Shown here in pieces: positions 4,133 through 19,183 of a stretch of DNA of 64,000 bases (position 1 is the stretch's first letter; each line of letters begins with the position of its first letter). The notes beneath the pieces were generated by a model. It did no database searches, was not told the origin of the DNA, and saw nothing but the letters and a program-made list of their open reading frames with translations. The stretch comes from Armatimonas rosea (GTDB lineage Bacteria > Armatimonadota > Armatimonadia > Armatimonadales > Armatimonadaceae): the NCBI RefSeq assembly GCF_014202505.1, contig NZ_JACHGW010000003.1:248001-312000 (forward strand). The letters are read 5' to 3'. The translations under genes were made by a program, and so were the position numbers.

Positions 4133-4510
4133 CTACTCCTTCTCGCTAGTCAGCATCCGCCCCACCCAGACCCGAAGCTCATTGGGATCAAAGGGCTTGG
4201 TGAGGTAGAGATCGGTGCCCTTGATGTAGCCGCGGGTGATATCGTTCTCGCTGGAGCGGGCCGTGAGCAAGATCACGGGCAGCTTGACCAGCTCCGGGCT
4301 CTGGCGGATGTGCTCGATAAGCTCAAGGCCGTCCATCTCGGGCATCATCACATCGGAGATCAGCAGGTCGTAGTCGTTTTGCAGAAGGCAGGTGAGCGCC
4401 TCGTGTCCGCTGGCGGCAGTATCGACCGTGTAGCCCGCTCGCTCCAGGTTCACTTGGAGAATACGAGTGATACTGTCCTCGTCGTCAACGGCCAGAATGC
4501 GTTTGGTCAT
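4133..4510 (-). CDS. Stand-alone response regulator receiver (CheY-like)
   Basis: The 125-residue product is a single receiver domain with no output domain. Key residues are visible: acidic pair D9-D10, phospho-acceptor D53 in LLISDVMMPEMDG, switch T83 and conserved K105 in LTKPFDP. Such proteins relay phosphate or act by protein contact. It begins 18 bases after the stop of a second receiver gene and ends four bases before the GH36 start, so the three form one operon. No histidine kinase is in the window. The sequence is closely similar to the neighbour at 4529-4912 and to the receiver at 19631-20026. Confidence 0.85.
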   Translation of the reverse strand: MTKRILAVDDEDSITRILQVNLERAGYTVDTAASGHEALTCLLQNDYDLLISDVMMPEMDGLELIEHIRQSPELVKLPVILLTARSSENDITRGYIKGTDLYLTKPFDPNELRVWVGRMLTSEKE

Positions 4511-4528
4511 AGTGGTTTCTCTGAAGAT

Positions 4529-4912
4529 TTAGCTTGGTAAGATGCGCTCGACAAAGGCGACGAGCTCGGCAGGATCGAAGGGCTTGGTGAGGTAGAGATC
4601 GGTGCCGCTGGTGTAGCCATGCACCATGTCGTCCTCACTCGTGCGTGCGGTGAGCATGATGACCGGAAGGTCGCTGAGCTTCTCATCCCGGCGCAGGGCC
4701 GCGACCAGCTCGTAGCCATCCATCTCGGGCATCATGATATCGGTGATCAGGAGGCTCGGGCGCTGGAGGAGCATCTGGCGCAGAGCATCCGCCCCCGATA
4801 CGGCGGTGGTGACTTGGTAGCCATGACTCTTAAGGTTGAACTCAATCTGCCGAAGAATGTGGGGATCGTCTTCCACAACAAGAATCGGCAGCGCGTCGAC
4901 GGTCTGTGACAT
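4529..4912 (-). CDS. Stand-alone response regulator receiver (CheY-like)
   Basis: I take the start at ATG 4912, giving 127 residues from MSQTVDALPILVVEDDP; the longer open frame upstream has no receiver homology. It is a single receiver domain with acidic pair D15-D16, phospho-acceptor D58 in LLITDIMMPEMDG, T87 and K110 in LTKPFDP. A TACAAT -10 box lies eight bases before the ATG, so the leader would be very short. It is the first gene of the minus-strand operon that continues with a second receiver and a GH36 enzyme, and it is divergent from the MntR-like gene. Pairing of two near-identical receivers suggests a phosphorelay or duplication. Confidence 0.85.
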   Translation of the reverse strand: MSQTVDALPILVVEDDPHILRQIEFNLKSHGYQVTTAVSGADALRQMLLQRPSLLITDIMMPEMDGYELVAALRRDEKLSDLPVIMLTARTSEDDMVHGYTSGTDLYLTKPFDPAELVAFVERILPS

Positions 4913-8274: not shown

Positions 8275-8829
8275 ATGACATCTTCTGTACGTGACGACTA
8301 TGCCCGTATGGCGCGTGGGTGTGAGTCGACTTTGATCGCCACCGCACGGCGCTTGGTGCGCGACGACGACCGGGTGCTGGACTTGGTGCAAGAGGCGCTT
8401 GTGCGTGGCTACGAGGCCTTTCGTGCAGGGAAGTTTGTGGCGGGGGGAAAGCCTTGTGCCTGGCTTGCTCGCATTCTGACCAATCACTTTATCAATGAGT
8501 GGCGTCGTGAGAAGAAATGGGGGGCGGGTGTCACGGTGGAGGATGTCACGGCAGGCGGGGAGATTGGCCCCGAGGCGACCCGAACCGCGAGCGCCGATAT
8601 GCTTCTGCTCGAGGCCACGCTAGAAGAACCCCTCGAAAAAGCCCTCGCTGAGCTGCCCGATGCCCTCCGCCTGACCGTGATTCTCGTGGACATGCAGGAG
8701 CTGAGCTATCAAGAAGCGGCGGAGAGGCTCTCGGTGCCTGTGGGGACGATTCGCTCACGGCTGGCCCGGGCGCGCTTTCAGCTCGCCGAGCGCCTGCAGG
8801 TATGGGGGAGAGAGAGGGGCCTGGTATGA
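8275..8829 (+). CDS. ECF-type RNA polymerase sigma factor
   Basis: The 184-residue product has a sigma region 2 (about 20-80, including DRVLDLVQEALVRGYEAF and ARILTNHFINEWRR) and a sigma region 4 helix-turn-helix (about 125-175, with LSYQEAAERLSVPVGTIRSRLARAR). This is the two-domain layout of extracytoplasmic-function sigma factors. Its stop codon overlaps the start of a ZAS-type anti-sigma gene (ATGA at 8826-8829), the classic pairing. It starts six bases after the HNH stop, so it may share the HNH transcript. The target promoters are unknown. Confidence 0.9.
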   Translation: MTSSVRDDYARMARGCESTLIATARRLVRDDDRVLDLVQEALVRGYEAFRAGKFVAGGKPCAWLARILTNHFINEWRREKKWGAGVTVEDVTAGGEIGPEATRTASADMLLLEATLEEPLEKALAELPDALRLTVILVDMQELSYQEAAERLSVPVGTIRSRLARARFQLAERLQVWGRERGLV

Positions 8830-9089
8830 AAAGCACGAAACCCTGTCCGCACATGACAACACTGCTCTCGGCGCTGGCAGACGACTCGCTCCAAGGGATT
8901 GCCCGCTGGTACACACAGAACCACGCCCAGCGCTGTCCGGGGTGTGGAAGCGCCCTCAGCGACCTGCGGACGCTGCGGGAGCGTATTCGAACTCTCGGGG
9001 TGCCTGCGGGGGAGACCCTGCAGCTCTCGGCGGAGCACTGGGAGCGCCTGGAGGCAGCCTGGGAAGAAGTCGATAAAACGGGAACCTGA
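8826..9089 (+). CDS. Small zinc-binding anti-sigma factor (ZAS motif)
   Basis: The 87-residue product begins MKSTKPCPHM, and the start ATG overlaps the sigma factor stop. It contains H33-AQR-C37-PG-C40, which fits the HxxxCxxC signature of zinc anti-sigma factors exactly; an upstream Cys-7/His-9 pair may add ligands. No transmembrane helix follows, so it would be a soluble, possibly redox-responsive anti-sigma rather than a membrane-bound one. Function is inferred from the motif plus the strict coupling to the sigma gene. Confidence 0.72.
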   Translation: MKSTKPCPHMTTLLSALADDSLQGIARWYTQNHAQRCPGCGSALSDLRTLRERIRTLGVPAGETLQLSAEHWERLEAAWEEVDKTGT

Positions 9090-12228: not shown

Positions 12229-13011
12229 ATGTCAACCGTTATAGAGCCGGAGGAAAGCATTGTCCAGCTTCGTTGGGCACTGCGCTCTGGAGATAGTGCT
12301 TCTATTGACCGTGCTGTCGCGCCCCTTATCGAGGCGCTCTGGCAGCCACTTGTGGACCAAGCGCGGCGTATGGTGCGCTCGTCTTGGCGCCCGCTGGGGC
12401 TAGAAGGAGAGGATCTTGTCCAGGAGGCATGGCTCCGGGCACTTACCTACCTGACGGAGCCCGCGGGTGAGGGGATCCAGACCCAGGAGCACCTCCAGCG
12501 GCTCTTGTTACGGATGGTGCGTCAGCGCTTTCTGGATAGTGTAGACCGCGCAGAAGGACGAGATGATCAGGAGTATGACGAAGGGAAGGCAGAGGCCCAG
12601 GCAGGCCAAGAAGAGCTGGGAGAGGGACTCCTCTGGTTGGAGGAGGGGCCACGACAGCAGCTCCTGGGAGCTCTGTTTGAGAGCGAGGAGGCGTTTCAGG
12701 CAGCCTGCGCCCGAAAGCCAAAGCGTCGTCGGCGGCACTACCAGGCCTATGTCTTGTTCTTGTTGGCTACCTACTACCGCACGGAGGTTCTCGCGAGTGC
12801 AGAGACCGCTGCGATTTTTCAGCGCTATGTCTCGCTTTTGGGAGTGGCGAGCGAGGACTGGAGGGTGCTGGAGCAGGCCGCAGCGCTCCCGGAGTCTGGT
12901 GACAGCGAGCTCTTTGCGGCCGTCAATACCGTCTGTGGGACTACCCTGGCGGAGCGTGGAGCGCTGTATGTCTTTCGGTATGAGCTGGGACAGCTCGCAG
13001 GTGAGAGATGA
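12229..13011 (+). CDS. Sigma-70-like (region 2) regulatory protein
   Basis: From ATG 12229 the product has 260 residues. Residues about 30-110 resemble sigma region 2: WQPLVDQARRMVRSSW, LEGEDLVQEAWLRALTYL, and LLLRMVRQRFLDSVDRAEGRDD, the core-binding and -10 recognition helices. The C-terminal half is helical but shows no convincing region 4 helix-turn-helix, so it may be a divergent sigma or a sigma-derived adaptor. The stop overlaps the following anti-sigma-like gene (ATGA, 13008-13011). An alternative upstream start would run into the PfkB gene and lacks homology. Confidence 0.65.
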   Translation: MSTVIEPEESIVQLRWALRSGDSASIDRAVAPLIEALWQPLVDQARRMVRSSWRPLGLEGEDLVQEAWLRALTYLTEPAGEGIQTQEHLQRLLLRMVRQRFLDSVDRAEGRDDQEYDEGKAEAQAGQEELGEGLLWLEEGPRQQLLGALFESEEAFQAACARKPKRRRRHYQAYVLFLLATYYRTEVLASAETAAIFQRYVSLLGVASEDWRVLEQAAALPESGDSELFAAVNTVCGTTLAERGALYVFRYELGQLAGER

Positions 13012-13673
13012 CAAGAGTAACCAATGAGGAGCTAGTGGCAGTTGTCGAGGGAAGTGCGGATGCCCTCACCGAGCGACGCGTGCTCGCCGCAGCGCTGACC
13101 GATCCTATGGTGCGTCGCCGCCTTGATGTACTTCGGACTGCTGCGGAAGACACCACGCCTCTGCCTGCACTAACCCCGGGGGAGGTTGCTCGGCTTCAAG
13201 AGAACCTTCAGATCGCTGCACGGCGGGTGGGGCGTGAGCTCCAGGAGCGTGCCATGGGAGAGACCGAGCCGACCGTGGACTGGCAAAAACTGCTGGGAGC
13301 ACGAATACGCTCTTTTCTCTCGCTCCCCAAAAAGCGCTTGCACCTACCCGCCTTGGCTCCCGCTCTGGCGGCACCCGTGCCTCCGATCCAGGTACAGCGT
13401 GAGGTCCTGGAGACGCAGGGGATTCATCTCGAAGTTCACCAGCTCCCTGGGGAGCCTGCACAGCTACGCTTCTATGCAGATGCGAGCACCGCAGCGGAGT
13501 TTATCTCAGGAGAGACGACGGGGGTCGCTCTTGCCTTGCGTGAGGAGGGAGCGACAGAGCTTTGGGTGGAGGTGATTCCTCTGAATGAGGAGGGACGTGG
13601 CGTCCTAGAGCGCCCTGCTCCTGTTGTGCAGGGGAGCGTCGAGCTTCTCGCTGCGGCCTTGGTAACCGACTGA
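13008..13673 (+). CDS. Anti-sigma-like coupling protein, unknown function
   Basis: The 221-residue product opens with TNEELVAVVEGSADALTERR and then LAAALTDPMVRRRLDVLR. This resembles the N-terminal helices of zinc-less anti-sigma proteins ('EEL-A-VDG-L------V-A-L--DP--R--L'). A proline/alanine linker follows (about 105-125), then a beta-rich domain (125-221). No transmembrane helix is evident. It overlaps the sigma-like gene upstream (ATGA) and the STAND gene downstream (TGATG, 13671-13675), so all three products are made together. A role linking the sigma-like protein and the STAND protein is inferred. Confidence 0.55.
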   Translation: MTRVTNEELVAVVEGSADALTERRVLAAALTDPMVRRRLDVLRTAAEDTTPLPALTPGEVARLQENLQIAARRVGRELQERAMGETEPTVDWQKLLGARIRSFLSLPKKRLHLPALAPALAAPVPPIQVQREVLETQGIHLEVHQLPGEPAQLRFYADASTAAEFISGETTGVALALREEGATELWVEVIPLNEEGRGVLERPAPVVQGSVELLAAALVTD

Positions 13674-16600
13674 TGGCACAGGTAGCTCTGGGGCGGCTCC
13701 AAGCACTCTTAGAGGCGATCGTGCTGAGCGCACCCGCGACTCAGGCTGCGTTGCTCTGGGTCGCACAGGGGGCCATTGTCCATCCTGACCTTCAGCCCCA
13801 TCTCTCCGATCCACTCTTGCCCTTGGATGGAGCCTTTTTAAGCTTGGATAGCCAGCAACGCGCGATTGACCAGGCGCTCGCAGCGCTCCCGACGACCGGG
13901 GGGTGGGTAGGGATGCTCTGGGGGGCGCTCTATCTTCCCGCACAGCAAAAGGCCCAGCCTTGCCGTGTTGCAGTCGTGGCGCTACCAACTGAGGAAGGGA
14001 TACTCTGGACAACGCCTGAGCCGGTGTTACCCGTGAGCCCAGATATCGCGCAGAGCATTCAGCAGGCACTGACAGAAGCGCTACGGCTCATTGAGCGAGC
14101 AAGGCTCACACCTCCTCGGCCCGTCCGCTTGCTCTACCGTGTCGAGTGGGGGGAGAGGGCCGTGGGCGACTCACTGGGGCTCCCCCTTTTTCTGGCAGTC
14201 CTATCGGCGCTCACTGGGCGGGAGATTCGGCCAAACCTGGGGGCGACCGGTGCACTGGGAGTCGATACGCTGCGCCCCGTGGACTGGGTTGCAGAGAAGG
14301 AAGCGGCTCTCAAGGAGATTGGAAGTGAGCTCCTCTCTCCTTTGACTACCCCAACCCTGGTGGACGCTGCTGATAAAGCACTCGTAGGCGGCGGTATTTT
14401 TATCTCCCCAAAGGCTCCCTCGATCCCTCCCTTGGTTGCCGAGCCGACATTCCTGGCAGTGGATCTAGAGCTGGAGATAGGTACCACCCGACGGTCGCAG
14501 ATCATTGCTTTTGAGGAGACAGCCTGTGCTGCGCTTGAGCGGGCAGGAGGCTTTCTGTATCGGAGTAACGCTGGTGTCGAAGAGGGAATTCGTGCCGTGT
14601 TTGCCACTCCCGAAGCGGCTTGCCAGGGGGCTGTCATGGTACAGCAAGCGCTGTATCATCGGCAGTGGCAGCCAGATACGAAGCCACTGCTGGGGCGTAT
14701 TGGGATCTATCGTGGGGGCGCCGAGCGCCTGCCCGACGGCTACCTTGGCGAGGCACCACGTATGGCGGTCCGGCTCATGCAGGCAGCACAGGCGGGGCAG
14801 GTGCTCCTTCCACGTGCACTAACCACCACCACAGAATTCCCTGCCACGGTGTTGGGTACGCATCGCTTGCGAGATCTGTCGAGTATTGAGGAGCTCTGTC
14901 AGCTCAACCCACCTGATGTCCCTCCCTGCACCCTCCCCCCGCGTACCTTGCGTCTGCGGCAACATAACCTCCCTCTCGAACCCAATCCCCTCCTAGGGCG
15001 AGCCACAGAGCTGGCTTCCATACGGGCGATTCTGAACTCAGGGCGGCGGTTGCTGACCCTAACGGGGCCAGGGGGTATAGGGAAGACTCGCCTTGCGCTT
15101 CAGGTTGCCGCAGAGCTGGTGGAGCAGTACCCAGATGGTGTTTGGTTTGTTCCCCTAGCGGAGGTAGCGGGCGAGGACCAGCTGGTGACAGCAATCGCAG
15201 ATGCGATGGGGCTCGTGATTCGTGATAGCCGGGTTAACTTCGTCGAGGCACTCGCTCACCGACGCGCCTTGCTTGTGCTAGACAACTTTGAGAGTGTTCT
15301 TGACTGTGCTCCTCGTGTCGCACAGCTCCTACGTGATGCCCCAGGTGTTGTTTGCCTTGTCACCTCGCAAGCCCTCCTCTCTCTAAGTGGCGAGTGGCGA
15401 TTTGAGGTTGCTAACCTCACTCCTGAGGAAGCATGTCAGCTCTTTATGGAGCGCGCACATCAGGCCAACACCGCTCTGTTACTGACGACTGAGGACCAGA
15501 GGAGCATCCAAAATATCTGTGAACGCTTAGAAAGAATGCCTCTGGCGATTGAACTTGCCGCAGTCCGCGTCAGATTATTTTCTCTGCCTGAGATTGAGAG
15601 GCGTCTTGATGATGCCCTGAACTTGTTGGTCACACGAGCTCGCGACGTCCCAGAGCGGCAGCGGACTCTCCGTGGTGCGCTAGAGTGGTCCTACAATCTC
15701 TTGGACTCCACGGAACGTCAGTATTTTTTGCGTCTCTCTATTTTTCCCGGCAGTTTCCTTCCTGATGCTGCTAGCCTCGTCTGTGAGGAAGCTGATATCT
15801 TGGAGTGGCTCTGTGTCTTGGAAGACAAGTCTCTGATCCGTCGCGAGAGCAATGGTCGTTGGCGCATGCTCAGCCTCGTTCGCCAGTTTGCTCAAGAATA
15901 TTTATCTTGCCTGCCTCTGGAAGAAAATCTTGCACAAAAGGGCTTAATTAGCTACTGTAGTGGTATCGCGCAGAATGCAGCAAATAATCTCGATTCACCG
16001 AGAGAAGGTAAAACCTTCGATATCCTAGAAGCTGATTTTGAACTAATTCGCCTTTCCGTGGACTTACTCTGCAAGGACAAATCTGAATATTTAGTTCCAT
16101 TACTTCTGAATCTTGATTATTTTCTAAGGAGGCGTAGGTATTTACGGGAAATAGAAAATTGGTGTCAGTTTGCATTGAAGAATATTGATGAATGTGATTC
16201 TGTAAGTAGGGGGAAGTTATGCTTGGCATTATTTGCTGTTCTGAAGGATAAAGATGTTGAAGAATCATTTGAATTGATCAATGGTGTGATTGATATTGCT
16301 TTACTGATTTCAGATGAATCATTATATGCTGAGGCGTTAAGTTATAAGGGTATATTATTGGTTAGGGAAAAAGCTTTTGATGAGGCCTTAATATTGTATC
16401 GTATTGCTATGGGTATATATGAACGCAATAATGATAATGTTCGTTGTGTGCGGTTACTTAATAGTATTGCGCAAGCTAAAATACGATTGGGAAGATTTGA
16501 TGATGCTGAGAAGGATATCAATGATGCGATTGATATAGGAAGAAGAATTGGATGCACAAGAGATTTGATCGTGTCTATGAATAGTCGTGGTTTTTTGTGC

Positions 16601-16966
16601 CATGAATCAGGAGATTATGAAGGATCAGGTATTGTGTCTCGTGAGTTGGTTGATCTATGTTTGGAAATGAATGATATTTTGCCAATGATTGCGTCAGTAG
16701 CGAATTATTTTGATGTGAAGTTATGTAATAGTACTGTAGATATTGAGGTATTTTTGTTGATTGCTAAAATTTCAAAAGATATTGGTGATGTGGCGAATTA
16801 TGAGCACGTGCGTAAGATAATTTTAACTAAATATTTAGTTAGTGAAGATGCAATACCTGTATGTAGGCATCAATATGATTTGAAGGACTTAAAAGGCTTG
16901 TGGCAGCTGATTAATATTGTTGCAGATGGGAGATTTTTGGTTGACGGCGATGAAGTATCAAATTAG
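13673..16966 (+). CDS. Lon-like protease / cyclase-like / STAND NTPase / TPR fusion protein
   Basis: The 1097-residue product has four parts. (1) About 150-240: a Lon (S16)-like proteolytic domain, with GDSLGLPLFLAVLSALTG and TGALGVDTLRPVDWVAEK; S167 and K209 align with the Ser/Lys dyad. (2) About 258-412: a class III cyclase-homology domain (GIYRGGAERLPDGYLGEAP), missing the GDG metal loop and so probably inactive. (3) About 438-740: an NB-ARC/STAND NTPase, with P-loop GPGGIGKT (465-472) and Walker B LLVLDN (D537). (4) About 740-1097: TPR-like helical repeats. The last part is AT-rich compared with the rest. STAND proteins switch on when their repeat region senses a trigger; here a protease could be the output. 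Regulator or defence are both possible. Confidence 0.75.
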   Translation: MAQVALGRLQALLEAIVLSAPATQAALLWVAQGAIVHPDLQPHLSDPLLPLDGAFLSLDSQQRAIDQALAALPTTGGWVGMLWGALYLPAQQKAQPCRVAVVALPTEEGILWTTPEPVLPVSPDIAQSIQQALTEALRLIERARLTPPRPVRLLYRVEWGERAVGDSLGLPLFLAVLSALTGREIRPNLGATGALGVDTLRPVDWVAEKEAALKEIGSELLSPLTTPTLVDAADKALVGGGIFISPKAPSIPPLVAEPTFLAVDLELEIGTTRRSQIIAFEETACAALERAGGFLYRSNAGVEEGIRAVFATPEAACQGAVMVQQALYHRQWQPDTKPLLGRIGIYRGGAERLPDGYLGEAPRMAVRLMQAAQAGQVLLPRALTTTTEFPATVLGTHRLRDLSSIEELCQLNPPDVPPCTLPPRTLRLRQHNLPLEPNPLLGRATELASIRAILNSGRRLLTLTGPGGIGKTRLALQVAAELVEQYPDGVWFVPLAEVAGEDQLVTAIADAMGLVIRDSRVNFVEALAHRRALLVLDNFESVLDCAPRVAQLLRDAPGVVCLVTSQALLSLSGEWRFEVANLTPEEACQLFMERAHQANTALLLTTEDQRSIQNICERLERMPLAIELAAVRVRLFSLPEIERRLDDALNLLVTRARDVPERQRTLRGALEWSYNLLDSTERQYFLRLSIFPGSFLPDAASLVCEEADILEWLCVLEDKSLIRRESNGRWRMLSLVRQFAQEYLSCLPLEENLAQKGLISYCSGIAQNAANNLDSPREGKTFDILEADFELIRLSVDLLCKDKSEYLVPLLLNLDYFLRRRRYLREIENWCQFALKNIDECDSVSRGKLCLALFAVLKDKDVEESFELINGVIDIALLISDESLYAEALSYKGILLVREKAFDEALILYRIAMGIYERNNDNVRCVRLLNSIAQAKIRLGRFDDAEKDINDAIDIGRRIGCTRDLIVSMNSRGFLCHESGDYEGSGIVSRELVDLCLEMNDILPMIASVANYFDVKLCNSTVDIEVFLLIAKISKDIGDVANYEHVRKIILTKYLVSEDAIPVCRHQYDLKDLKGLWQLINIVADGRFLVDGDEVSN

Positions 16967-17371: not shown

Positions 17372-17411
17372 ATGGCATGATGAGTGAAATACTCATCATG
17401 CCATTTTCTTA
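17372..17411. terminator. Strong hairpin terminator between convergent genes
   Basis: A perfect 14-bp stem, ATGGCATGATGAGT (17372-17385) with ACTCATCATGCCAT (17391-17404), has a five-base loop and is followed by TTTCTTAT. It ends the small plus-strand gene, and may also serve the SPFH operon arriving from the right, whose stop codon is at 17409. Confidence 0.75.
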
Positions 17412-18251
17412 TCTGCCTAAGGTTAAATCGGTAAAGGGAATACGTCCATCTCCCGTTAATGGAGCGACTCCATCCCATTTTGTAATTGCCTTACGCCGTA
17501 GCTCAATCTTTTTAAGCGCGACTGCCTTATCACCCGCCTCGCCGAGGAGACGGTTAACTTCGGCTTGTTCTTTTGCTTTTGTCTGGATGGTCTCTGCCTC
17601 CACCGTGGCGCGTTTTAGGGTGACTTGAGCGGTGTCGAGCTCCGCACGGACGGAGATGCGCTCGTTGACTTTTTGTTTTACCTCTTCGGGGGGGTAGACC
17701 TCACCGGTGAAGACATCATCGACCGTTAGGCCCCATGCAGCGAGCTTTGGGGTGAGCAGGGTCTTGACCCGCTGGCCAAACTGCGCACGTTCTTTGCTAG
17801 TGAGCTCAAAGACACTCTTTTGACCACTGACACTATTGACTGCCCAGTTGGTAGCAGGACGGATGAACTCTGTCTGGATCTCCTGGATGTCATTGGTGCC
17901 GAAGTTCTTGTAGACGGTCATGACGTTAGTGGGATCGACATGGTAGCTCACGGTGACATCGACAGGGAGGATGGCCCCTTCGTTGGTGGAGCACTGGATG
18001 GAGTCGTTGCCAGAGCGCTCGGCACCACCATGGCCACCTCGTGTGTAGGTAGCGTTTCGGATATTGGTGGGGTAGAGAACCAGGCGCTGGCGAGGTAGTA
18101 CCCAGACGACTTGTGGCTTGAGGAGCCTTTCCTCGTTACCACTCATCGACGAGAACTTAACCCCGACTTGCGCGGGAGGGATCTCTCGGGCACAGCCGGC
18201 GAGCAGGGGGAGAGCTAGCCAGAGAAGAAGGTTGGGGGATAGGGTTTTCAT
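17409..18251 (-). CDS. SPFH/Band-7 domain lipoprotein
   Basis: The 280-residue product begins with a lipoprotein signal (LLLWLALPLLAGCAREIPP, Cys at about 20). A Band-7/prohibitin-like domain follows (about 25-190: VSYHVDPTNVMTVYKNFG, IRPATNWAVNSVSG), then a charged coiled-coil (about 195-255). SPFH proteins assemble into large membrane rings that organise proteases or lipids. Being a lipoprotein it would sit outside the cytoplasmic membrane, which is less common. The start overlaps the stop of the second SPFH gene (ATGA, 18248-18251), so the two probably form a hetero-oligomer like HflK/HflC. Confidence 0.8.
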   Translation of the reverse strand: MKTLSPNLLLWLALPLLAGCAREIPPAQVGVKFSSMSGNEERLLKPQVVWVLPRQRLVLYPTNIRNATYTRGGHGGAERSGNDSIQCSTNEGAILPVDVTVSYHVDPTNVMTVYKNFGTNDIQEIQTEFIRPATNWAVNSVSGQKSVFELTSKERAQFGQRVKTLLTPKLAAWGLTVDDVFTGEVYPPEEVKQKVNERISVRAELDTAQVTLKRATVEAETIQTKAKEQAEVNRLLGEAGDKAVALKKIELRRKAITKWDGVAPLTGDGRIPFTDLTLGR

Positions 18252-19183
18252 TGTCCGTTTTCTCCTTGTGGGCGTGCTGTAGCTGCTGGGGCAGTGGCGC
18301 GGCGCTTACTGAGGGCGGCGAGTGAGCTTCCATCAAGGATCATGGTCTGGTTGCCTCCGGTACGAATCTCGGGGAGGTGGCCGTCCCACTTCTCGATTGC
18401 CTCCTCGTCGGCCTGGAGCTGGAGCTGCTCCAAGCCCTTGTCTTTTGCGGTGGCGCTGGTGAGCTGGGTGGCTGTCATCCGGGCTTGGGCGGTGATGACA
18501 TTGGTCTGGCGGGAGACCTCGGCGATCTGTTTTCGGAGAACTGCAATATCGTACTCGGTGTACTGATTGACCCGGCGGGTGATCTTCTCCATGGTCTCGG
18601 GGGCGGGGTAAGCGGTCATGAGCATGAGGGAGTCGATGGCGATCCCTTTGGAGTCCATGCGCTTCTTGAGCGAGTCCGTGGCAAGCTGGCAGAACTCCTG
18701 GCGCTTGGGGCCCATGAGCTCAAAGACATCGTACTTGGGGCCGATCTCATTGACGACATCCTTGATGGCGCGGCGCAGGTGGTTGGCCTGGATGGTCTCC
18801 ACATCGATGGGGCCAAAGCTGTTGAATACCTTGATGGCGTTCTCCTCGCTGATGCGGTAGATGACGCAGACATCGAAGGTTGTGTTGGCGTTGTCGCTCG
18901 TGGTGATGAGGATGCCATCGGCGACCTTCTGCTCCCCTTCGTTGGCATCCTGGACGTACTTGGCGCTCATGAGCTTGGTGGGGAAGGAGTAGAGCCGCTG
19001 GCGCCAGCCCACAAAGACGCGTCCCGGCTTGAGGGGCTTGGGCTGGACCCCCGAGCTAGCGTCGTAGAGAATCCCGACATAGCCCGCATCGATCCAGGCC
19101 GAGCGGGACTCGATAAAGCTCCAGATGGCGATTCCGGCGACTAGCACCCCCCCGCAACCTAGAGCAAACGTTTTAAACTTCAT
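18248..19183 (-). CDS. SPFH/Band-7 domain membrane protein
   Basis: The 311-residue product has one N-terminal transmembrane anchor (about 5-25: FALGCGGVLVAGIAIWSFI), a Band-7 domain (about 30-200: DVCVIYRISEENAIKVFNSFG) and a coiled-coil to about residue 270, then an Ala-rich tail. It is clearly related to its partner at 17409-18251, and translation is coupled by an ATGA overlap. It follows the small membrane protein gene by three bases. The pair resembles HflK/HflC or prohibitin pairs, though no FtsH is in the window. Confidence 0.82.
   Translation of the reverse strand: MKFKTFALGCGGVLVAGIAIWSFIESRSAWIDAGYVGILYDASSGVQPKPLKPGRVFVGWRQRLYSFPTKLMSAKYVQDANEGEQKVADGILITTSDNANTTFDVCVIYRISEENAIKVFNSFGPIDVETIQANHLRRAIKDVVNEIGPKYDVFELMGPKRQEFCQLATDSLKKRMDSKGIAIDSLMLMTAYPAPETMEKITRRVNQYTEYDIAVLRKQIAEVSRQTNVITAQARMTATQLTSATAKDKGLEQLQLQADEEAIEKWDGHLPEIRTGGNQTMILDGSSLAALSKRRATAPAATARPQGENGQ

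Follow-up and report, generated by a model that had tools for sequence, protein, structure and literature searches.

Analysis of the window (the whole 64-kb stretch of DNA under study) revealed three adjoining genes encoding a sigma-like protein, a putative anti-sigma-like protein, and a large protein that joins a Lon proteolytic domain to a decayed cyclase domain, a STAND NTPase and TPR-like repeats. We lean, slightly more than evenly, towards interpreting this cassette as a three-protein, ligand-triggered proteolytic transcription switch, in which we infer the inhibition by gene 2, the cutting of its product, the oligomerisation and the ligand. A plausible mechanism, and the best supported and most economical reading, is that the STAND-gated protease cuts the gene 2 protein and frees the gene 1 protein; this had been suggested from the sequence-only reading and was partly supported by the results below.

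Organization and distribution of the cassette

The ORF coordinates showed that the three genes form one unit with overlaps of a few bases (Table 1). The gene 1 stop and gene 2 start overlap in AGATGACA (13008-13011), and the TGA stop of gene 2 (13671-13673) overlaps the gene 3 ATG at 13673; the coordinates and overlaps matched the earlier description of three linked plus-strand genes. The gene 1 start at 12229 (MSTV...) is supported by the orthologue in G001, which shares it, although a longer open frame extends from 12034. Directly upstream of the cassette is a run of genes read from their sequences as PspA, GATase, DnaJ-like and PfkB. Inspection by eye of four upstream regions of the cassette gave no clear result for a shared promoter motif, and no CRISPR-type repeats or arrays were found in the 64-kb window.

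Other features of the window were also observed. Two adjoining, related SPFH/prohibitin-like genes lie on the minus strand downstream of the cassette (17409-19183), and a direct repeat of 213 nt is present in two copies at 4155-4754, with 71% identity and 387 bases from start to start. A match to sigma region 4 (8629-8775), situated just before the PspA-like gene, is followed by a small ORF (8802-9089) with a CPGCG motif; this is apparently an ordinary ECF sigma/zinc anti-sigma pair (8629-9089), distinct from the cassette.

Table 1. Features of the three-gene cassette (positions in the window).
Feature	Positions	Strand	Description
Gene 1	12229..13011	+	260 aa; sigma region 2-like N-terminal half and conserved C-terminal domain
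Sigma region 2-like segment of gene 1	12259..12549	+	residues 11-107
Gene 1 C-terminal domain	12646..12996	+	kept in cassette and stand-alone homologues; RxxxxYQ, W211, V232, V248, E252 (alignment)
Gene 2	13008..13673	+	221 aa; putative soluble anti-sigma-like protein: helical N-terminal domain, linker, beta-sandwich
Gene 2 helical anti-sigma-domain-like region	13008..13253	+	residues 1-82; ChrR 2z2s_F Z 8.3, model residues 1-79
Gene 2 LxxLAPAxAA motif	13344..13373	+	residues 113-122; invariant in 5/5; linker pLDDT 43-55
Gene 2 C-terminal beta-sandwich	13386..13670	+	residues 127-221; from the model
Gene 3	13673..16966	+	1097 aa; Lon proteolytic domain, decayed cyclase domain, STAND NTPase, TPR
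Lon (S16) proteolytic domain	13895..14395	+	residues 75-241, without AAA+ part
Predicted catalytic Ser167 (GDSLGL)	14171..14173	+	invariant in 5/5; aligned with Lon Ser
Thr192 of ATGA motif (TG of Lon MTGE/ITGS)	14246..14248	+	invariant in 5/5
Predicted catalytic Lys209	14297..14299	+	invariant in 5/5; aligned with Lon Lys
Class III cyclase-homology domain, decayed metal site	14435..14887	+	residues 255-405; PDB cyclases E 1e-4
STAND (NB-ARC-type) NTPase	14960..15907	+	NB-ARC 1.5e-6, over its cut-off (Pfam)
P-loop GPGGIGKT	15065..15088	+	residues 465-472
TPR-like repeats	16010..16702	+	best match residues 927-983; TPR_12 1.3e-9; outer limits approximate

Among 291 Armatimonadota genomes, the N-terminus of the Lon-STAND protein and gene 2 were each found in the same five (G000, G001, G003, G006 and G008), all of which belong to the window's family of twelve genomes; gene 2 was present only where the Lon-STAND gene was. 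At each of the five loci, the three genes adjoin in the same order and on the same strand, overlapping or nearly so. The G008 contig carries only the end of gene 1, and the G003 gene meets a contig edge, with contig C46 appearing to carry the remainder (shared end sequence, same clade). The sequence-only reading had staked its proposal on homologues of the genes at 12229, 13008 and 13673 occurring together elsewhere, and this was found at every Lon-STAND locus.

The upstream genes are also conserved. PspA, GATase, DnaJ-like and PfkB genes precede the cassette in G000 and G001, and DnaJ-like and PfkB genes precede it in G003, so that the cassette follows the same DnaJ-like and PfkB genes in two genera. 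In G006 the cassette is located elsewhere and the linkage to the upstream genes is lost, while different genes come after pfkB in the other relatives that have it. The Lon profile found no related locus in viral contigs, and neither plasmids searched with gene 1 and the Lon domain nor phage records searched with gene 2 yielded a related protein; a pattern scan of a one-genome-per-species collection returned only the four family members already found. PADLOC assigned no defence family and reported only weak P-loop matches. The cassette thus has the appearance of an old regulator, specific to its family and retained by vertical descent, rather than of a defence gene that travels, and nothing was found that ties it to phage defence.

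Domain structures of the three proteins

Gene 1 contains a sigma region 2. The NCBIfam sigma70-ECF model matched at 2.2e-5, under that model's curated cut-off, and Pfam Sigma70_r2/ECF matched at 0.002, below cut-off, while a profile built from the gene 1 homologues found bona fide ECF sigma factors of other genomes at about 1e-7. Neither PF08281 nor any other region 4 match was found at the locus with Pfam, and the alignment of the gene 1 profile to the genome's own ECF factors stops at about residue 155. The earlier label of sigma-like therefore held for region 2 and failed for region 4. Since gene 1 has no recognisable region 4, it may not function as a sigma factor, and we describe it as sigma-like only and do not file it as an ECF sigma factor. 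Stand-alone homologues of about 350 aa (L058-L061) occur in G005, G009, G010 and G011, all from one genus (g5), with neither gene 2 nor the Lon fusion; several of these adjoin an M20-type peptidase gene and a tRNA nucleotidyltransferase-like gene. No second homologue of gene 1 or gene 2 was found in the window's genome. The 6.3-Mb genome G000 is very rich in ECF-type sigma factors, with 78 sigma region 4-type (PF08281) matches.

Gene 2 matched no known family in Pfam or NCBIfam. Its predicted structure was of middling quality (pLDDT 66), and the best match to this model among 350,542 PDB chains was the anti-sigma factor ChrR in complex with SigE (Foldseek 7.7e-4, probability 0.82; model pLDDT 66). 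Upon superposition, the similarity of the gene 2 model (pLDDT 66) to ChrR was modest, with a Z-score of 8.3 and an rmsd of 11 over 70 residues. Weak matches to TRAF/Siah-like and other beta-sandwich structures (Z 5-7.7) were treated as generic. The His/Cys zinc motif (ZAS) is absent, since the window's gene 2 protein contains neither His nor Cys in its first 80 residues, and hydropathy revealed no obvious transmembrane segment. The genes that follow the genome's ordinary ECF factors had diverged too far from one another to provide a set of anti-sigma factors with which gene 2 could be compared. Thus, the sequence-only description of gene 2 as anti-sigma-like found no sequence family behind it and gained modest structural support from ChrR (model pLDDT 66). 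The LxxLAPAxAA motif in the linker is, speculatively, a candidate cleavage site.

The Lon domain of gene 3 went unseen in the window's protein by single-sequence Pfam search, and PF05362 appeared in two of the five homologues, with a best E of 0.015. It was revealed only by the fold and by a family profile made from the five known copies, aligned over their N-terminal 256 residues. In the PDB, this profile matched Lon proteases that ranged from that of M. jannaschii (8e-7) via human LONP1 to CalpL (7qda; 0.0018). Its weak matches in the 291 Armatimonadota genomes fell at identical positions of the profile, most of them in frames about 800 aa long, which is the length of ordinary Lon. The AlphaFold2 model of the domain had a mean pLDDT of 89.7, and its top Foldseek matches were Lon proteolytic domains (5e-10). 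VIA-align superposed model residues 75-241 on Lon proteolytic domains with a Z-score of 21.3 and an rmsd of 1.9 Å over 160 residues. The model thus predicts a full Lon fold with high confidence; residues 1-74 form a largely helical extension.

Ser167, Lys209 and Thr192-Gly193 are invariant in all five copies, which share about 37% identity. About one fifth of the alignment columns are invariant, so dyad conservation in these sequences supports activity and is no proof of it. The motif flanking the serine is altered, with GDSLGL in place of PKDGPSAG, and no Glu follows the TG; profile alignment placed GDS and TGS motifs at the equivalent positions of archaeal LonB. LonA and LonB carry an AAA+ unfoldase in the same chain, and the P-loop of gene 3 is instead of the NB-ARC/STAND type and lies after the Lon domain. 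Profile, model and fold match agree on a Lon-type domain lacking its AAA+ part, as proposed from the sequence, and the proposed S167 and K209 indeed align with the Lon pair. Residues 150-240, where S16 similarity had been placed, are S16-like with a conserved dyad, although these limits were too narrow (Table 1).

The remaining domain assignments of the sequence-only reading also stood: a cyclase-homology domain without its metal loop, an NB-ARC NTPase with an intact P-loop, and TPR-like repeats (Table 1). In particular, none of the five cassette copies has the second metal Asp of the cyclase domain, and three have Glu in place of the first, while both are retained in the 14 paralogues in which this region is visible. 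The STAND domain has the Walker B sequence LLVLDN in addition to its intact P-loop, and in G000 and G001 Gln takes the place of the Arg in its TSR motif. At least 11 further matches to the cyclase/STAND/TPR part occur in the window's genome. A tree of 33 STAND sequences placed the cassette proteins in a single group with support of 100/99, and the Lon fusion therefore probably arose once.

A steep G+C drop was observed within gene 3 at 15774-16966 (codons 701-1097). The G+C content falls from 0.63 (codons 1-400) to 0.33 (codons 800-1097) and GC3 from 0.66 to 0.27, and the coding strand of the 3' part shows a GC skew of up to about +0.5 with strong C depletion. This is the only low-GC stretch of such kind in the 64-kb window; the same fall is present in the G001 orthologue and absent in G006. 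Among the paralogues looked at, only the cyclase-STAND-TPR pair L150 (G000:C5:1-13000) and L154 (G001:C4:3000-9921) showed a similar fall, with G+C decreasing at the 3' sensor end from 0.68 to 0.43 and from 0.61 to 0.39, without skew. Over codons 721-840, the proteins of G000 and G001 share an identity of 0.47-0.48, near the bottom of the range seen in the remaining protein. It is possible that the sensor part of gene 3 has been replaced or is unusually fast-changing.

Proposed mechanism and alternative explanations

In the proposed switch at rest, the helical domain of the gene 2 protein would hold the gene 1 protein (sigma region 2), and the STAND/TPR part would keep the Lon domain of gene 3 inactive or monomeric. 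Binding of a ligand by the TPR/STAND part would lead to nucleotide exchange and oligomerisation, which would bring the Lon domains together and render the Ser167/Lys209 dyad active. The active dyad would cut the gene 2 protein, possibly in the linker near the LAPAxAA motif, and the freed gene 1 protein would redirect transcription. Because the Lon domain has an invariant dyad and no AAA+ unfoldase, it is expected to cut a specific substrate and not to degrade proteins in bulk. The switch is supported by the confinement of gene 2 to the Lon-STAND genomes and its linkage at all five loci, by the top structural neighbour of gene 2 being an anti-sigma factor caught with its sigma factor, by the sigma region 2 of gene 1, and by the same logic having been proven in Calp and Craspase. 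The loss in the cassette proteins of a cyclase metal site that is kept in the paralogues fits a changed role. Counting against the switch are the lack of a recognisable region 4 in gene 1, the stand-alone gene 1 homologues in four genomes without gene 2 or the Lon fusion, the poor gene 2 model (pLDDT 66) and the modest ChrR match.

Since gene 2 has no family and only a modest anti-sigma resemblance, the polarity could be reversed, with gene 3 cutting or unfolding gene 1 or another regulator, gene 2 acting as an adaptor or substrate guide, and shut-off as the output. Lon enzymes frequently destroy regulators, as such a scheme would have it; however, Calp and Craspase have been proven to work by release and the top structural match of gene 2 is an anti-sigma factor, and we consider reversal unlikely. 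The Lon domain might alternatively be a non-catalytic or assembly module in an ordinary STAND regulator that binds gene 1 or gene 2. The Lon-like domain of RadA (5h45), which is non-proteolytic, also matched the model, and the altered flanking motif and missing Glu would suit this role. Invariance of Ser167, Lys209 and Thr192 across five copies as divergent as these, together with the LonB motifs at the same places, argues for catalysis instead and leaves the assembly module an improbable explanation.

Two further readings concern what the protease acts upon and what it senses. Activated Lon could be a direct effector that attacks general cell proteins, in abortive infection or growth arrest, with genes 1 and 2 controlling only expression of the cassette. 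Antiviral defence commonly employs STAND proteins fused to effectors (PMC7159879), but the absence of PADLOC matches other than weak P-loop ones, the lack of a related locus in viral contigs or in the plasmid and phage searches made, and a fixed chromosomal site by pfkB in two genera, unlike a mobile defence island, make this a very unlikely reading. The input may instead be an endogenous metabolite or stress rather than phage, making the cassette a housekeeping or envelope-stress regulator; this retains the same switch logic and is compatible with our preferred explanation. Its single origin, its family-restricted spread and its position after the PspA, DnaJ-like and PfkB genes conserved in G000 and G001 (DnaJ-like and PfkB in G003) point in this direction, whereas the linkage is lost in G006 and such STAND sensors serve defence too. 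We regard an endogenous input as a possibility of some weight, clearly below even.

Comparison with known systems

The proposed switch was compared with systems in which a protease controls a sigma factor. In regulated proteolysis of the DegS/RseA/RpoE and RsiW types, a protease likewise cuts an anti-sigma factor and frees the sigma factor; those anti-sigma factors are membrane proteins, in contrast to gene 2 with no transmembrane segment by hydropathy. Regulators of the class III cyclase-STAND-TPR and SARP-STAND (AfsR-type) kinds have the same chassis as gene 3, although the cyclase-STAND-TPR paralogues have no Lon domain and keep the metal site where it is present. EACC2-caspase cassettes with an ECF sigma factor and DUF1822, predicted by Burroughs and Aravind (PMC8195603), show a similar three-gene logic of a protease with variable sensor domains, an ECF sigma factor and a third protein, but the protease is a caspase and there is no Lon domain, and gene 2 has no DUF1822 match in Pfam. 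A match of the three genes to the cyanobacterial ECF/DUF1822/caspase-CHAT cassettes was considered and set aside, as Pfam gave no DUF1822, caspase-fold or CHAT match.

In the type III-E system Craspase, Csx29 cuts the sigma inhibitor Csx30, with CASP-sigma as the sigma factor (PMC10028731). The Craspase/CASP locus (Cas7-11-Csx29, Csx30 and CASP-sigma) combines a TPR-bearing, sensor-gated protease, a sigma inhibitor and a sigma-like protein, as the cassette is predicted to do. The Craspase protease, however, is RNA-guided and of caspase (CHAT) fold, whereas the putative protease of the cassette has a Ser/Lys Lon fold and a STAND sensor.

In Calp, CalpL (Lon-SAVED) cuts the anti-sigma factor CalpT bound to CalpS (PMC11417357). 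As in the cassette, an N-terminal Lon domain without AAA+ is joined to a C-terminal sensor and encoded with a sigma factor and its inhibitor, to which a sigma-like protein and a putative anti-sigma-like protein would correspond in the cassette, and the cassette Lon profile also finds CalpL (7qda, E 0.0018). The cassette sensor is of the cyclase-like/STAND/TPR type, with no match in Pfam to SAVED, the sensor of Calp that binds cyclic oligoadenylate, and where Calp has a linked type III CRISPR the 64-kb window holds no CRISPR array. The partner genes differ as well: gene 2, with its structural resemblance to ChrR (model pLDDT 66), has no detectable relationship to MazF or CalpT, and gene 1 offers region 2 only, with no recognisable region 4. 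With no SAVED domain and no CRISPR array in the window, we describe the cassette as probably working like Calp and do not file it as Calp.

The sequence-only reading had known of no described system with this gene order. That holds for the sensor and the order, but the protease/anti-sigma/sigma principle is known, including Lon without AAA+ in CalpL. No description of a STAND-Lon fusion with sigma partners was found in the literature searched, which included few subscription papers. The new element appears to be the NLR-type STAND sensor, which takes the role of SAVED or CRISPR. STAND sensors belong to the class of plant and animal immune receptors. The cassette may represent, with a likelihood that we place just short of even, the first receptor of the NLR (STAND) type with a Lon protease built directly into it for cutting a dedicated anti-sigma protein; such a switch would be independent of CRISPR and cyclic oligonucleotides and would have evolved separately from Calp and Craspase. 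If this is true, the small system would offer a simple readout of STAND activation in gene 2 cleavage and gene 1-dependent transcription, the ligand of a bacterial STAND-TPR receptor could be screened for directly, and the cassette could form the basis of a ligand-programmable protease switch. The protease/anti-sigma/sigma output module would then be interchangeable among sensors, working with SAVED in Calp, with RNA-guided Cas7-11 in Craspase and with an NLR-like STAND receptor in the cassette.
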